From the NCBI GenBank assembly GCA_016933675.1, contig JAFGAM010000048.1, positions 1 to 55,770 of the forward strand: a DNA stretch of 55,770 nt, read 5' to 3'. Source of the stretch: Candidatus Anaeroferrophillacea bacterium. Its GTDB lineage: Bacteria; Desulfobacterota; Anaeroferrophillalia; Anaeroferrophillales; Anaeroferrophillaceae. A program made the position numbers and the translations under genes. This document shows positions 6,072 to 52,870 of this stretch, piece after piece. Under the pieces are notes generated by a model. It was not told where the DNA came from and did not search any database. It saw only the letters and a program-made list of their open reading frames with translations. Within the stretch, counting starts at the first letter, position 1. Each line of letters opens with the position of its first letter.

Positions 6072-6123
6072 AATGAAAAGGGCAACATGCTAACCCCGTC
6101 TCCTGCTCCCGTCCCCTGAGTAC

Positions 6124-8453: not shown

Positions 8454-8520
8454 TTCGAGGGGCGAGGAACGAGCAAAGATGGCGCAGCTCTCGCCCCTAA
8501 CCCATCGACCCGAACCCCAG
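8454..8520 (+). repeat. 67-bp repeat, copy 1 (GACGAGCAAAGATGG family)
   Basis: The sequence (G)AACGAGCAAAGATGGCGCAG followed by CTCTCGCCCCTAACCCATCGACC recurs with few changes at 11781-11855 (same strand) and 12499-12568 (opposite strand). All copies lie immediately downstream or upstream of genes, never inside them. Confidence 0.8.
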
Positions 8521-11780: not shown

Positions 11781-11855
11781 GGGGCGAGTATCGAGGGACG
11801 AGGGACGAGCAAAGATGGTGCAGCTCTCACCCCTAACCCCTCGACCCTGACCCCT
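11781..11855 (+). repeat. About 70-bp repeat, copy 2 (GACGAGCAAAGATGG family)
   Basis: Contains CGAGGGACGAGCAAAGATGG then TGCAGCTCTCACCCCTAACC and CCTCGACCCTGACCCC. It sits between the STAS gene and the 3' end of lepB, and an inverted copy lies just upstream of lepB (12499-12568), so lepB is bracketed. Confidence 0.85.
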
Positions 11856-27797: not shown

Positions 27798-28205
27798 CTC
27801 TTCTCTCTCCTTGTCAGACATCCAGGGGCAAACAGAAACCACCATCCGCGTCCATGGACCCATGATGTGGCGTGATTCAACCTCGATGGACGCGCAAAAC
27901 CTCGAACAAGACGTCCTTCCCGCACCGACGGGAATCCGTGACTGACTGCATCCAGCGGATTACCGCTTCCGCGGGGATGACGGCAAGTGGTCTGAACAGG
28001 CTTGTAGCGAAACCATCAACCATGATGGAACCGTAACAACCGCCGGATGGCGCCGAAATGGGCCGGCACCACCAGCGGGGGCGATTCGTTATTAACCGCC
28101 CCGCCGGATTCGCGGTGCGCCAAACCTGAGGGTTGCGGCGTGACCCCAAGCCGCGGTGACGCGGGTTGTAAGGCACCGCAGAGGTATGGGGTGGTTACGA
28201 AGCCG
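27798..28205. other. Intergenic region aminotransferase / TrkA with repeat copies
   Basis: 408 bases. 28004-28072 is a good copy of the dispersed repeat (ATGATGGAACCGTAACAACC then GCCGGATGGCGCCGAAAT). A second partial copy, GTATGGGGTGGTTACGAAGCC, occurs at about 28182-28205. 28073-28140 holds a degraded GGGGCGATTCG...CCGCC sequence reminiscent of the palindromes. No gene or RNA seen in 27798-28003. Confidence 0.6.
28004..28072 (+). repeat. Dispersed intergenic repeat, full copy
   Basis: GCGAAACCATCAACCATGAT followed by GGAACCGTAACAACCGCCGG and ATGGCGCCGAAATGGGCCGG. Matches the core of 33211-33270, 52816-52870 and 49299-49330. Confidence 0.8.
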
Positions 28206-28871
28206 TCAACCTTTCTCCACCCGGGTGCGGATCCTCTCCAGGTTCTCGTTCTCGCCGATAAGCACCAGCGAATCGCTGTCCTTGATGACGAAGTCGGGCG
28301 CCGGGGCAACGTGGAAGCGCTCGGGCACCAGTTCGCGAATGGCGATCACCTGCACATGGTAGCGGTTGCGCAGCTTCAGCTCGGCGAGGCTGTGGCCAAC
28401 GAACTCGGGCAGCGCCGCCAGTTCGATGATCCCGTACGCCCGGCCCAGGGGCAGATGGTCGATGATATTGGGCGAATGCAGGTTTTCAGCAACCCTGATA
28501 CCAGTATCCTTCTCCGGAAAGATGATGCCGTCGGCGCCGATCTTCTGCAGAATGCGGCCATGATCCTCGGTGATCGCCTTGACCATCACCTCGCGCACCT
28601 TGAGTTCCTTGAGGTAGAGGGTGATGAGGATACTGGCGTCCATGCGCTCGCCGACGCTGACCACCGCGACGTCCACATCCGCCACCCCGAGTTGCTGCAG
28701 GGTTTCGCGATCATCGGCTTCGGCCACCACCGCATGGCTGACCACGTCCTTGAGCAGCTGCACCCGCTCCGGGTTGCGGTCGATGGCGAGTACATCCTCC
28801 CCCAGCTCCGCCAGGTGGCGGGCGAGATAGTAGCCGAAGTTACCGATGCCGATTACCGCGAATTGACGCAT
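28206..28871 (-). CDS. trkA: TrkA/KtrA-like K+ channel regulatory subunit
   Basis: A cytosolic RCK protein that gates the K+ channel TrkH, encoded upstream. The 221-residue protein has a Rossmann fold with GIGNFG at residues 8-13 and the acidic VLAIDRN ribose-binding end, then a TrkA_C domain (about residues 140-221). A single RCK unit makes it KtrA-like. The start ATG 28871 (MRQFAVIGIGNFG) has GGAG nine bases upstream. It follows trkH after 138 bases, with a dispersed-repeat fragment in the gap, and is the last gene of the ParB-SPL-nucleosidase-Trk run. Confidence 0.9.
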   Translation of the reverse strand: MRQFAVIGIGNFGYYLARHLAELGEDVLAIDRNPERVQLLKDVVSHAVVAEADDRETLQQLGVADVDVAVVSVGERMDASILITLYLKELKVREVMVKAITEDHGRILQKIGADGIIFPEKDTGIRVAENLHSPNIIDHLPLGRAYGIIELAALPEFVGHSLAELKLRNRYHVQVIAIRELVPERFHVAPAPDFVIKDSDSLVLIGENENLERIRTRVEKG

Positions 28872-28944
28872 GATGTCAATCTCCGTTTGCCGCCGCCTGA
28901 TCCCGGCACCCGGTCCGGGAAAAAGGGGTACGGCGGAGGGGTCG

Positions 28945-28972
28945 ATTGGAGTTGTTGCGAAGCCATCCCGCA
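28945..28972 (+). repeat. Dispersed intergenic repeat fragment (GTTGTTGCGAAGCCATC)
   Basis: The 3' half GAGTTGTTGCGAAGCCATCC lies in the trkH-trkA gap. Confidence 0.5.
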
Positions 28973-29009
28973 TAAACCGTGAAAACCGCCGGATAACGAG
29001 GGAAAAACC

Positions 29010-30368
29010 TCAGCCGATCATCACCTGCTCCTCGACATAGGCGTAGCGCCCGCCCCGGCGCCGGGGGCCGGCGAGGAAAACCAGCGCCGTCAGCGGCCCC
29101 ACCCGGCCGATAAACATCAGCAGCACCAGCAGCACCTTGCCGGCGACGGACAGGGTCGGGGTGATGCCGGTGGAGAGTCCGACGGTACCGAAAGCGGACA
29201 CCGCCTCGAACATCAGATCCATGAAGCGGCCGCGGGACGCCAGCAGTGAACAGGCGACATCGGCATCGCTCAGGGACAGGGCGAAGATGAAGCCCAGCAG
29301 CACCACCAGCGACACCATGAAGATGGAAAAGGCCTGGTTCACCGTGTTCTGCGGCACCGTGCGCCGGAATCCGCTCACCGCGTCACGGCCGGAAAACCGC
29401 GTCCAGGCGGTGAGTACGAGAATTCCGAAGGTGGTTGTCTTGATCCCGCCGGCGCAGGAACCGGGAGAAGCGCCGATGAACATCATGAAGGCGATGAGCA
29501 GCAGCGAGGCGTCGCTGAGGGCGGCGATATCGACGGTATTGAACCCCGCCGTGCGGGCGCTCACCGCCTGAAACAGCGCCGCCGGCAGGCCGCCAGGGAT
29601 GCCGGCGGCGCCCTGGCCGGCGGTACGTTCGCACCACCACAGGCCGACGGTGCCGCCGACGATGAGCACCACGGAAACCGTAACCGCCAGCTTGGTGTGC
29701 AGCGACCACGGTCGCCGACGCAGCCCCGGATATTTCAGACGGTACCAGCCCTCGGTCAACACCAGGAAGCCGATGCCGCCGGCGACGATCAGCGCCATCA
29801 CCACGAGGTTCACCGCCGGCTGGCCGCGGCAACCCGTGAGACTGTCGGCAAACAACGAAAAACCGGCATTGCAGAAGGCCGAAACGGCGTGAAACAGCGC
29901 CAGCCAGGCGGCCTCGCCAGCCTCATGGCCGGGCCGCCAGCAGACGAAGAGCACCGCCGCCCCGGCCAGTTCACAGGCCAGGGTAAAACGGAAGATATTG
30001 ATCACCAGCCGCCGGGCGTCCAGACCCGGCAGTGACGAAAAGGTGTCGGAGATCAACAGCTTCTCGCGAAAACCCAGGCGCCGCCCGCGCATCAGGGCGA
30101 AAACCACCGAGAAGGTCATGATCCCGAGGCCGCCGGCCTGGATCAGCAGGAGGATGATGGCCTGACCGGCAAAGGAAAAACGGCTGCCGGTGTCCACTAC
30201 GATGAGCCCGGTGACGCACACCGCCGAGGTGGCGGTGAACAACGCGTCGATCCACCGCAGCGGCGGGCCCGCCACCATGAATGGCAGATGCAGCAGTACG
30301 GTACCGCCGAACACCAGGCCGATGAAACTCAGCACGATGATCTGCGCCGGCGTGAGGCGACGCATCAT
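29010..30368 (-). CDS. trkH: TrkH/KtrB-family K+ transporter channel subunit
   Basis: A 452-residue multi-spanning protein with four M-P-M repeats. Each pore loop retains its selectivity-filter Gly: TSAVCVTGLIV, SAFCNAGFSLF, SARTAGFNTVD and SAFGTVGLSTG. That length and filter set match Ktr-type systems and mean K+ (or Na+/K+) conduction. It begins MMRRLTPAQIIVLSFIG. Its start overlaps the nucleosidase stop by four bases, giving strong translational coupling with unrelated-looking upstream genes. trkA lies downstream. Confidence 0.94.
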   Translation of the reverse strand: MMRRLTPAQIIVLSFIGLVFGGTVLLHLPFMVAGPPLRWIDALFTATSAVCVTGLIVVDTGSRFSFAGQAIILLLIQAGGLGIMTFSVVFALMRGRRLGFREKLLISDTFSSLPGLDARRLVINIFRFTLACELAGAAVLFVCWRPGHEAGEAAWLALFHAVSAFCNAGFSLFADSLTGCRGQPAVNLVVMALIVAGGIGFLVLTEGWYRLKYPGLRRRPWSLHTKLAVTVSVVLIVGGTVGLWWCERTAGQGAAGIPGGLPAALFQAVSARTAGFNTVDIAALSDASLLLIAFMMFIGASPGSCAGGIKTTTFGILVLTAWTRFSGRDAVSGFRRTVPQNTVNQAFSIFMVSLVVLLGFIFALSLSDADVACSLLASRGRFMDLMFEAVSAFGTVGLSTGITPTLSVAGKVLLVLLMFIGRVGPLTALVFLAGPRRRGGRYAYVEEQVMIG

Positions 30369-31075
30369 CCGTGCCGCTCCGGCACCCCGGCCGCAGCCAG
30401 GAGATCGGCACCGGTGCCGGCAAGCCAGTCCAGCAACGCCGTCAGGGTCGCCGCGGCAGCGGCGAGCACAGTATCGGCATGGCGGGTGAATTCCTCCGCC
30501 AGGCCGCCTTCGCCAACATCGGTGATACCCCGGAACACCAGCGCCGGCACCCGGTTACGGTGCGCCACCCGGACCACCGCGGCGCCCTCCCAGTCGGCGG
30601 CCACGGCGCCGTGGTCCCGGTGCAGCCGGGCGCGCAGTTCGGGTTGGTCGGCATTGCGGTCGGCGGAGGCCACCGGACCGACAACGATTTCCGGAAAGGC
30701 ATCCCGCAGCCGGGCAACCAGTTCCGGGGCGCACTGCTGCCGCGGCACATCCCGGTGCAGGCTGGCGAAATCGTATTCGATCACCGCCGATGACAGCACC
30801 ACGGCACCCACGGCAAGCTCAGGTACCAGGCCGCCGGCGGAGCCGAAGTTGATCACCAGCCGCGGGCGGCGAACGGCAATGAGCTGCTGGGTGGTGGCCG
30901 CCGCCATCACCTTGCCAAGCCCCGACGAGGTGGCCACCAGGTCGAGACCGCCGTGGTCCCGACGGTACCAGGAGCGACCGTCAACGTCCTCCCGATCCCA
31001 CCCGACGGCGGCGAGCAGCGGCCGCAATTCGTGGCGGAAGGCGGTAACGATGCCGATCAACGGACGTTCAGACAT
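30365..31075 (-). CDS. MTA/SAH nucleosidase-family phosphorylase/hydrolase
   Basis: A 236-residue member of the 5'-methylthioadenosine/S-adenosylhomocysteine nucleosidase family. The N-terminus IGIVTAFRHELRPLL carries the likely catalytic Glu; AADWEGAAVVRVAHRN and RGITDVGEGG carry the purine-binding Glu and catalytic Asp. Family members cleave MTA, SAH and 5'-deoxyadenosine; futalosine hydrolase (MqnB) is a near relative and cannot be excluded. The ATG at 31075 (MSERPLIGIVT) has GGAGG 11 bases upstream and lies inside the last codons of the SPL-like radical SAM gene (19-base overlap). It overlaps trkH by four bases. Confidence 0.85.
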   Translation of the reverse strand: MSERPLIGIVTAFRHELRPLLAAVGWDREDVDGRSWYRRDHGGLDLVATSSGLGKVMAAATTQQLIAVRRPRLVINFGSAGGLVPELAVGAVVLSSAVIEYDFASLHRDVPRQQCAPELVARLRDAFPEIVVGPVASADRNADQPELRARLHRDHGAVAADWEGAAVVRVAHRNRVPALVFRGITDVGEGGLAEEFTRHADTVLAAAAATLTALLDWLAGTGADLLAAAGVPERHG

Positions 31076-32187
31076 GAATCCCCATACCTCCAGCATGCCC
31101 GGTCCAGCAACCGGGAGACGACATCGTTGTCCGCCGGCGCGGCGCCGAAGGTCCGGCGCCACATCTCCGGGTGCTCCATGCAGTAATACTGCCGCACCCC
31201 CGGGGCCCGACGGTTCAGCTGCCGCCGCAGATGTTCGTAGAGCCGCCGCCGCAGGCCCCAGAAGTAGCGCATCTTGCCGTCGAGACCGCGGATAAACTCA
31301 CCGTGGATGATGCAACTCGCCGGGTGACGATCACGGATCACCTCGCGCATGGGCGGCATGAAACGGAAGGCGCCGAGGGAGATCCAGATGATGTCATCCG
31401 GGCGCAGATAATCGAAAATCATCTCCACCGCCCGGGTATATCCCTCCTCCCAGCCGGCGAACCAGATCAGCGGGTCGAAGTGCAGACCGATACGGTAGCC
31501 GCGCTGCCGACAGGCCGCCGCCGCCGCCAGACGTCGTTCGATCCCCGGCGCCGTCCCTTCCTCCCGTTCCGCCACCGCGGGGGCGTTGACGCTCCAGGAA
31601 ACCACCGTCTCGCCGATGTCGCCGTCGTAGTCCAGCAGCCGGCGGATATTGACGCTCTTGGTCTTGAACTCCAGCACCGCCTGCCGCTGCCGGGCGAAGA
31701 ATTGCACCAGCCGCGGCGACAGGGCGGTGATGTCGTCCATAAACAGACTGTCGGTGAACTCCCCGGTGCCCACCCGGTAAAACCGGTCGCCGGCGGCAAA
31801 GGCGGTCTCCAATTCGCGCCAGGCATCCTCGAGGTTGACGAACTGGGTGATGAAAGGCCGGTTGAGATAGCCCTGCAACACGCAATAGGAACAGCCGATG
31901 GTACAGCCGAGCGCCAGGTGAAGAATGTGATACAGGCAGCAGCGGTAGCTTGCCGCGGTCCCCGGACAGGGCTTGAAGAAACGGCCCCGGTGTACCGCCA
32001 GCACCAGGGTCGGCAACTCCGGGTCCGGCAGTGCCGTGAGGGTCTCCGGGTCGGCCCGGTCGACGACCACCACCGGCACCCCGGCCAGCCGGTCACGGAT
32101 CGCGGCGGCGAAGGGATACCGTGCGACGTCCGTTTCCACCACCAGCCGCCGGGGGTGAAAATTGCCATCAGACGTCAAGGAGTTCAT
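31057..32187 (-). CDS. SPL-superfamily radical SAM protein
   Basis: A 376-residue radical SAM protein related to spore photoproduct lyase. The [4Fe-4S] motif is LGCTIGCSYCVLQGYLNRP (CxxxCxxC near residue 99). The following VGTGEFTDSLFMDDIT (about residues 140-155) stands where true SP lyases have the hydrogen-donor Cys (Cys141 in B. subtilis), and no Cys is seen there. GLHFDPLIWFAGWEEGY and IWISLGAFRFMP are group-specific. The ATG 32187 (MNSLTSDGN) overlaps the ParB-like gene by 20 bases; the longer reading to 32466 lies inside that gene. No sporulation gene lies nearby. Function is unknown; the repair role of SPL should not be transferred. Confidence 0.8.
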   Translation of the reverse strand: MNSLTSDGNFHPRRLVVETDVARYPFAAAIRDRLAGVPVVVVDRADPETLTALPDPELPTLVLAVHRGRFFKPCPGTAASYRCCLYHILHLALGCTIGCSYCVLQGYLNRPFITQFVNLEDAWRELETAFAAGDRFYRVGTGEFTDSLFMDDITALSPRLVQFFARQRQAVLEFKTKSVNIRRLLDYDGDIGETVVSWSVNAPAVAEREEGTAPGIERRLAAAAACRQRGYRIGLHFDPLIWFAGWEEGYTRAVEMIFDYLRPDDIIWISLGAFRFMPPMREVIRDRHPASCIIHGEFIRGLDGKMRYFWGLRRRLYEHLRRQLNRRAPGVRQYYCMEHPEMWRRTFGAAPADNDVVSRLLDRACWRYGDSCLNVR

Positions 32188-33133
32188 CCACCGTTTCCGG
32201 CGCGAGAGCGGCAAGCCAATCCCGCTGCGTGCGCCAGGCATCGCCCCCGGCAACCCGGCAGCGCAGTTCCAAAAAACCACCCTCGAAACCGGGGGCGGGC
32301 TGCAGGCATACCCCGGCGGGCAGCCCCAGGGCCGCCCGCCGCCGGTCGAACCGTTCCTCGGCCGCCCGCAGGTGGGGATAATACCACCCGCGCAGCCGGT
32401 CACGCACCGCCGCCGGGGTGTCACGGCCGGGACCATCACCGTCCTTGGCGCCGTTACCGGCGGCATCTTTCAGCCGGGTCAGCACCACCGCCGGCGGCTC
32501 TCCCTGCCGGCGGGCAACGCCGTCGACCAGCTCCACCAGTTCCCGCAACTGGTTGCGGTTGAGCGGCAATTCCGTAGCCCGGCGGGCGGCGGCGGCGATT
32601 GCCGCCGGCGACCATTCCCGCAGGCGGTCGACGGTCTCCCCGTCAACCCGGCCGCCGGCGGCCAGATCGCGCAGCACCTCGGGAAAATCATGCAGTGCCC
32701 GGCACCGTGCGAGGGTGCGTGCCCCGGAGGCAAGACCGAGTGCGGGCACGACATCCCGCGCCAGCTCCGCCGCCGGCAGCAGCGGTTCGAGAACGGTGAG
32801 GATATCCGCCGCCTCCACCGGGTTGAAGGACCGGCTGCCGGCGTTCTCCCAGAACACCCGCGGCAGCAGTTCGGCCGGATCGGCGGTTGTCAGCCGCCCC
32901 ACCGCGACCTCCGCCAAGCCGACCTCACCGGCGGCCAGAAGCCGCCGGCGGCCGCTGACAATGATCCACCCCTTCGTCCCCGGCGCCAGCAACGGCGGCA
33001 CCATGACACCGAGCCGCCGCACCGACGCCACCAGGCCCGCCGGCGGCGCTCCCCAGGAAAAGGGATAGGTACGGTCGGCGAAGTCGACCTCGGTGAGGGA
33101 AATGGGTTCAGGCTGGCACGATAATTCAATCAT
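32168..33133 (-). CDS. ParB/Srx-fold protein with HTH, no ParA partner
   Basis: A 321-residue ParB N-terminal-domain protein. It opens MIELSCQPEPISLTEVDF. The CTP/phosphate loop GxRR appears as VSGRRRLLAAGEVGL (about residue 61). The second motif, WENAGSRSFNPVEAADIL (about residue 94), matches the ParB ENxQRxxxNPxEEA box. A helix-turn-helix-like region follows (RTLARCRALHDFPEVLRDLA). These residues suggest a CTPase-type ParB-like DNA-associated protein, but no ParA is adjacent and the HTH is not assigned to parS. Its end overlaps the SPL-like gene by 20 bases, so both are probably made together. A repeat tract lies immediately upstream. Confidence 0.8.
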   Translation of the reverse strand: MIELSCQPEPISLTEVDFADRTYPFSWGAPPAGLVASVRRLGVMVPPLLAPGTKGWIIVSGRRRLLAAGEVGLAEVAVGRLTTADPAELLPRVFWENAGSRSFNPVEAADILTVLEPLLPAAELARDVVPALGLASGARTLARCRALHDFPEVLRDLAAGGRVDGETVDRLREWSPAAIAAAARRATELPLNRNQLRELVELVDGVARRQGEPPAVVLTRLKDAAGNGAKDGDGPGRDTPAAVRDRLRGWYYPHLRAAEERFDRRRAALGLPAGVCLQPAPGFEGGFLELRCRVAGGDAWRTQRDWLAALAPETVDELLDV

Positions 33134-33210: not shown

Positions 33211-33270
33211 CAGGCCTGATGAAACCGTAACAACTGCCGGACGGCACCGAAACGGGATGGCACCGTACGG
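33211..33270 (+). repeat. Dispersed intergenic repeat, best full copy
   Basis: Begins CAGGCCTGATGAAACCGTAA, continues CAACTGCCGGACGGCACCGA and ends AACGGGATGGCACCGT. The minus-strand copy at 17844-17908 matches along about 60 bases. Confidence 0.85.
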
Positions 33271-33650: not shown

Positions 33651-33692
33651 ATCCGCAGTAGGGGCGGTTCGCGAACCGCCCCTACTGCGGAT
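33651..33692. repeat. 42-base perfect palindrome, GTAGGGGC...GCCCCTAC family
   Basis: Starts ATCCGCAGTAGGGGCGGTTC at 33651 and is its own reverse complement through 33692. The core GGTTCGCGAACC differs from those of the other copies (GACCGGCCGGTC, GGGTTTCAAACCC, ACGGCGCGCCGT), while the GGGGC/GCCCC arms are shared. Confidence 0.9.
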
Positions 33693-49216: not shown

Positions 49217-49391
49217 GGATTTTCAAGGATCGAAGAGCGCCGGATAAAGGTTCACAAGGGAGGTGTTAAAGCACAGGTGGACGCCACAAGTCAAGTTTGA
49301 TGGCATCGTAACAACTGCCGGAATACCTCAGAATACACCGGCACCCGGCAACGGCTTCAGCTTTGCGGCGCGCAAAAGTTGAGGGATGCGG
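49217..49391. other. Intergenic region queA / DUF2065 gene
   Basis: 175 bases. It holds a dispersed-repeat fragment (49299-49330). No promoter or terminator is convincing. Confidence 0.5.
49299..49330 (+). repeat. Dispersed intergenic repeat fragment
   Basis: GATGGCATCGTAACAACTGC followed by CGGAATACCTC matches the left part of the 33211-33270 copy. Confidence 0.65.
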
Positions 49392-52815: not shown

Positions 52816-52870
52816 GGACGGAACCATAACAACTGCCGAATGGCGCCGGTTAGGGATGACACCGTCACGG
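52816..52870 (+). repeat. Dispersed intergenic repeat, left half
   Basis: GGACGGAACCATAACAACTG then CCGAATGGCGCCGGTTAGGG and ATGACACCGTCACGG. Aligns to 33221-33270. Confidence 0.75.

Follow-up and report, generated by a model that had tools for sequence, protein, structure and literature searches.

A stretch of 55,770 nucleotides from Candidatus Anaeroferrophillacea bacterium (assembly GCA_016933675.1, contig JAFGAM010000048.1), hereafter the window, carries an operon in which the gene for a ParB-like protein overlaps that for a radical S-adenosylmethionine (SAM) protein resembling spore photoproduct lyase (SPL-like). A comparison across genomes showed that these two proteins and a family 2 glycosyltransferase (GT2) are inherited and lost together, and that their genes are often translationally coupled in pairs. 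The three very probably represent one functional system of some kind. Among 345 Thermodesulfobacteriota genomes, in which species are phylogenetically non-independent and metagenome-assembled genomes (MAGs) incomplete, as in all genome counts here, and with no control gene of similar prevalence, all three members occurred in 178, none in 141 and other combinations in 26. The corresponding phi coefficients were 0.93 for ParB-like with SPL-like and, rounded, 0.88 for GT2 with either of them; the cut-off for ParB-like was 1e-26, just above the generic-ParB background, and stricter cut-offs lowered the coefficients involving this protein to 0.78-0.91. When grouped by family, 53 families mostly had all three members, 42 mostly had none and 6 had another combination, while nine families included both all-three and none genomes. 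A second phylum was reached via a MAG labelled Omnitrophota, and its 97 genomes, of unstated completeness, showed a clear though weaker association, with phi values of 0.61-0.71 (GT2-SPL), 0.60 (GT2-ParB) and 0.40-0.51 (ParB-SPL). SPL-like also occurred in all four genomes of the phylum to which a MAG with the label Zixiibacteriota belongs, although individual MAGs may be mislabelled.

Physical linkage pointed in the same direction. Within 80 loci from named genomes, taken as the best-ranked SPL-like matches, the ParB-like gene was located directly upstream of the SPL-like gene in 39, and 34 of these pairs overlapped or lay within 10 bases of each other, often by 4 bases or 1. Overlaps of a few bases were observed for the ParB-SPL, GT2-SPL and GT2-ParB pairings alike, and in the second phylum GT2 adjoined SPL-like in 13 of the 13 loci read. 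ParB-like adjoined SPL-like throughout the window's order wherever contigs permitted, and the named carriers of the pair included Desulforhabdus sp. TSK and Desulfacinum infernum; because the adjacency holds across this order and recurs in many other families, it is not a matter of chance. Desulfobulbus rhabdoformis and D. elongatus have ParB-like apart from SPL-like, elsewhere in the same genome. An earlier note on this DNA had named absence or unlinking of the pair in related genomes as grounds for refuting its proposal; the pair was present in most of the order, and unlinked genes still co-occurred.

The window operon comprises five genes, all on the minus strand, listed here in order of transcription:

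32168..33133, minus strand: ParB-like NTPase-fold protein, 321 aa, with ParB N-domain boxes I-III and a helical middle domain, and no ParA-binding motif
31057..32187, minus strand: SPL-like radical SAM protein, 376 aa (ATG at 32187, stop ending at 31057), with CxxxCxxC and the SPL fold; PF20903 (SPL), 90 bits
30365..31075, minus strand: MTA/SAH-nucleosidase-like protein, 236 aa (ATG at 31075, stop ending at 30365); PF01048, 114 bits
29010..30368, minus strand: TrkH-family K+ uptake subunit; PF02386, 199 bits, and TIGR00933, 344 bits (above the cut-off of 331)
28206..28871, minus strand: TrkA/KtrA-type regulatory subunit, ~221 aa (ATG at 28871, stop ending at 28206); PF02254 and PF02080 above cut-off, TrkA_N 93 bits

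The likely starts reproduced the figures of the earlier note, which had described five genes in one direction with overlaps of 20, 19 and 4 bases between the first four and a 138-base gap between TrkH and TrkA.

The ParB N-domain that had been read in the first gene was borne out, although its ParB_N match (14.3 bits) fell below the cut-off of 26.3, since profile, fold and motif conservation agreed. An hhalign comparison with the genome's own canonical ParB gave an E-value of 1.5e-13 over residues 10-180, and the AlphaFold2 model (pLDDT 92.5) found its best Foldseek matches in ParB/Noc/KorB (E 4e-7). The GxxR of box II, G61 and the box III glutamate E107 were invariant in 33 of 33 relatives. 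Beyond residue 180, where the profile match ends, the predicted C-terminus forms a helix-strand-strand-helix resembling the ParB dimerization domain. The family shares with the ParB/Noc/KorB CTPases the N-domain boxes, the helical middle domain and a similar order of C-terminal secondary structure elements, but differs from them in lacking both the ParA motif and a nearby ParA, in its degenerate helix-turn-helix and in its co-inheritance with an enzyme pair. The ParA-binding motif [LFI]G[KR]G[LFI] was absent from all ParB-like relatives in two sets (0/33 and 0/23). A role in chromosome partition was therefore ruled out, as the motif never occurs in the family and the genome's canonical ParB, with an LGRGL motif, is encoded by a separate gene beside ParA on another contig. 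No model for the ParB-like family as a whole was found in NCBIfam, Pfam or PADLOC. A 671-aa open frame elsewhere (L222:356-2371) fuses SAICAR synthetase (PurC) with a ParB-like protein; in many other lineages PurC is the gene just before ParB-like.

The SPL-like protein matched SPL along its whole length. Its predicted model (pLDDT 88.9) aligned with SPL structures (4rh0/4fh*) at an E-value of 1e-21 and TM scores of 0.75-0.82, whereas the next radical SAM enzyme reached 1e-5. The score against the SPL equivalog model TIGR04070 was 83 bits, below the cut-off of 400. Bacillus SplB and a cyanobacterial SPL-family protein served as references in an alignment of the family, and columns were counted over 41 sequences. 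The hydrogen-donor cysteine of SPL, Cys140(Gt)/141(Bs), was replaced by glutamate in 41/41 SPL-like sequences, while both reference proteins retained cysteine; the relay tyrosine Tyr98(Gt) was replaced by isoleucine in 36/41 and valine in 5/41. In SPL these residues pass hydrogen back and restore SAM (PMC3742179, PMC5368176), and their replacement rules out a bona fide SPL. The family shares with SPL (SplB; TIGR04070, PF20903) the whole fold, CxxxCxxC and the equivalents of Gt K174 and R273, which are the invariant K172 and R270. It differs in showing no sign of a sporulation context and in occurring nearly always together with GT2 and ParB-like. An invariant DGKxRY hairpin lies close to the C-terminal segment of SPL, and the protein carries a C-terminal extension relative to SPL. 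Four cysteines, C69, C78, C79 and C331, were gained and are invariant; we infer that they could bind another Fe-S cluster. In the alignment, C69 takes the position of Gt S76, which was mutated to cysteine in 4rh0. The SPL of C. acetobutylicum has a conserved C74 across the pocket from the tyrosine, which has been discussed as a hydrogen donor (PMC5368176), and C69 would correspond to this residue. More divergent SPL-like proteins at L070:723-1880, with GEL.DS where others have GEFTDS, and at L085:2369-3331 lie apart from ParB-like and probably belong to other SPL subfamilies without partners.

GT2 was recognized by neighbour clustering, which in many lineages placed it immediately before the ParB-like or the SPL-like gene, with a 4-base overlap in some cases. 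In the window's genome it is encoded on a different contig (G000:C97:5631-6437); the earlier module boundary had caught the ParB-like/SPL-like core and missed this third member. GT2 members from deep lineages were mostly 40-57% identical over their full length, which marks them as orthologues and not as any GT2, and the gene was nearly always single-copy among the 345 Thermodesulfobacteriota genomes. The DSDD motif is intact and no membrane helix is present, so that a cytoplasmic acceptor is expected. At L087:5944-9171, a GT4 glycosyltransferase gene lies in the middle of one tight operon with SPL-like and ParB-like. GT2 was not found in this genome in the survey, and a glycosyltransferase of the other family may stand in for it there.

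We tentatively favour a system in which a ParB-like NTPase guides an SPL-type radical enzyme to nucleic acid and a sugar is then attached to the product. In this scheme, the ParB-like protein would bind a nucleoside triphosphate (NTP), CTP or another, act on DNA as a clamp or as a switch for loading and recruit the SPL-like enzyme; the pair would in this way be DNA-directed. Using SAM and a [4Fe-4S] cluster, SPL-like would create a radical on a nucleic-acid base, as SPL does on thymine. Because the Cys/Tyr path of hydrogen return is gone, it probably does not simply recycle SAM as in repair but functionalizes the base and spends the cofactor, after which GT2 would put a sugar on the modified product. 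The co-transcribed nucleosidase of the window's order may remove 5'-deoxyadenosine, and its addition to the operon of one lineage would be explained by SAM consumption after the loss of the SAM-return path; the product removal suggested by the earlier note is thus kept as a lineage-specific addition and does not extend beyond that lineage. The scheme would amount to an oxygen-independent equivalent of DNA hypermodification of the base-J type. A DNA or RNA hypermodification of anaerobes, in which a clamp-loaded radical SAM enzyme functionalizes a thymine-like base and a dedicated glycosyltransferase finishes it, is possible but rather doubtful in so specific a form.

Several observations weigh against nucleic acid as the target. 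The helix-turn-helix of ParB-like is poorly conserved, and the closest genuine SPLs act in repair. GT2 enzymes build mostly envelope glycans, and a relation of this GT2 to the DNA-associated TAGT family was dropped: the protein of one genome reached an E-value of 0.002, but just 1 of 14 members scored, and that weakly, which is uninformative. In the second phylum, ParB-like was usually unlinked and was absent from 16 of 40 GT2-bearing genomes. No relatives were found in viral contigs, and the trio is chromosomal, unlike most known hypermodification systems. Moreover, 17 of 28 ParB-fold proteins tested bound no NTP (PMC12704722).

An alternative is a glycoconjugate or small-molecule pathway, in which SPL-like would produce or alter a sugar, lipid or nucleoside intermediate, GT2 would glycosylate it, and ParB-like would regulate the operon or the enzyme in a nucleotide-gated manner. 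The best NCBIfam relatives of GT2 are TuaG, EpsE and WcaA, though all score far under their cut-offs, and GT2-SPL is the tightest pair of the second phylum, with ParB-like located elsewhere. An analogous route exists for hopanoids, which employs a radical SAM enzyme, a nucleosidase and a glycosyltransferase; the window's nucleosidase scored 67 bits against HpnG, below the cut-off of 187. Nevertheless, the fold of SPL-like is specifically the one known from a DNA lyase, membrane segments are absent from GT2, the neighbours of the trio genes include no further recurrent gene for a sugar, lipid or polyprenyl, and loss of ParB-like tracks loss of SPL-like and GT2, which leaves such a pathway unlikely. 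Light-independent DNA repair, with a ParB-like-loaded SPL variant acting on a lesion other than the spore photoproduct, such as a crosslink in anaerobes, and with C69 as hydrogen donor, is improbable. The SPL fold, the placement of C69 at the Gt S76 site with the C74 precedent (PMC5368176), and the SSB gene that follows SPL-like in many Desulfobulbales loci are consistent with repair, but the SPL Cys/Tyr pair is lost, many hosts live in the dark, and there would be nothing for a glycosyltransferase to do, although GT2 is co-inherited and a GT4 sits in the operon of L087, in whose genome GT2 was not found.

It is very improbable that the three are simply long-standing core genes shared by certain clades, distributed together by descent, adjacent by chance and with separate jobs. 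Phylogenetic non-independence of the species counts would favour this, and each gene can stand alone, but nine families hold genomes of both kinds, with all three genes and with none, and overlapping, coupled genes are seen again in other pairings and in the second phylum. Least credible of all is a larger unit of ParB-like, SPL-like, nucleosidase and K+ channel, for which gene order and overlaps in the window speak. Relatives argue otherwise: the nucleosidase follows SPL-like in the window's order only and TrkH/TrkA lie next to the pair in the window's family only, while other genes follow SPL-like elsewhere, including SSB, NifU-like, CheW/CheR and 3-hydroxyacyl-CoA dehydrogenase. With linkage so limited, the nucleosidase and TrkH/TrkA are local passengers. 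The earlier note had united the first three genes, named the K+ channel as perhaps an accidental or regulatory partner, and suggested looking for MTAN and TrkH after the pair in other genomes. What survives is an ancient functional pair of ParB-like and SPL-like, with the nucleosidase outside it; the K+ channel is discarded, and a five-gene system with it, although the nucleosidase could still assist locally.

Nor did a search for a constant fourth partner succeed, as PurC, NadB, SSB, DnaJ-like, leucyl aminopeptidase and folate genes recur locally and not across families. Upstream of the pair, NadB is typical of the window's order and PurC of other lineages; these clade-specific genes look like ordinary neighbours. 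The candidate of a mobile, phage or defence element was likewise rejected, given the lack of viral-contig relatives and of any defence-system family for the core proteins; distant SPL relatives appeared in just 2 phage and 16 plasmid records.

Base J is made by a JBP hydroxylase and a glucosyltransferase, and JBP needs O2. The trio as proposed shares with base J synthesis the logic alone, namely to functionalize thymine and then glycosylate it, and no JBP homologue was seen here. A precedent for the ParB-like role is DpdB, a ParB-like ATPase that works with the DNA base-modifying enzyme DpdA (PMC12839542). The Dpd 7-deazaguanine system shares a ParB-like NTPase serving such an enzyme, but DpdA is TGT-like and not a radical SAM protein, no glycosyltransferase takes part, and the system is of defence type whereas the trio is part of the chromosomal core. 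PADLOC gave no hit to Dpd or Dnd systems, and the recurrent neighbours of ParB-like, often judged from sequence reading only, included neither a DpdA-type TGT nor DndACDE. A survey of orphan ParB-fold proteins mentions no SPL partner (PMC12704722), and no description of the combination of ParB-like, SPL-like and GT2 was found in the open literature searched, a scope that excludes most subscription journals. Nor did the curated libraries searched yield a name for the trio, which departs in a defining respect from every family compared.

Roughly half of the Thermodesulfobacteriota genomes sampled, and part of a second phylum, carry the trio as core genes. Should it modify DNA or RNA, sulfate reducers in culture would hold an unnoticed glycosylated base formed without oxygen, a base-modifying enzyme would be under the control of a ParB-type switch, and a second chemistry would be added to the SPL family. 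If the trio acts elsewhere, it would still represent a core pathway absent from annotation.

With respect to the remaining genes of the window operon, the nucleosidase scored 102 bits against its best NCBIfam model, NF004079 (cut-off 169), and is placed by its PF01048 superfamily match. A MTA phosphorylase (G000:C118:119313-120029, L310) was the sole other PNP-superfamily gene found in the incomplete window genome. TrkA pairs with TrkH in L061. No RNA families or tRNAs were detected when looked for in the window. Both ends of the operon carry a 25-base repeat TGATGRAACCGTAACAACYGCCGGA (28023-28047 and 33217-33241), which is also present at 49298-49322 and 52816-52840; its core gave five matches versus none in 100 shuffles, and it is possibly a small repetitive element. 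A perfect 28-base palindrome GTAGGGGCGGTTCGCGAACCGCCCCTAC occupies 33658-33685, between the operon and a divergent methyltransferase gene. Further repeats comprise a 64-base sequence at 8455-8518 and 11791-11854 (89% identical) and a GC-rich 30-base palindromic repeat in three copies, at 6118, 12712 and 14872.

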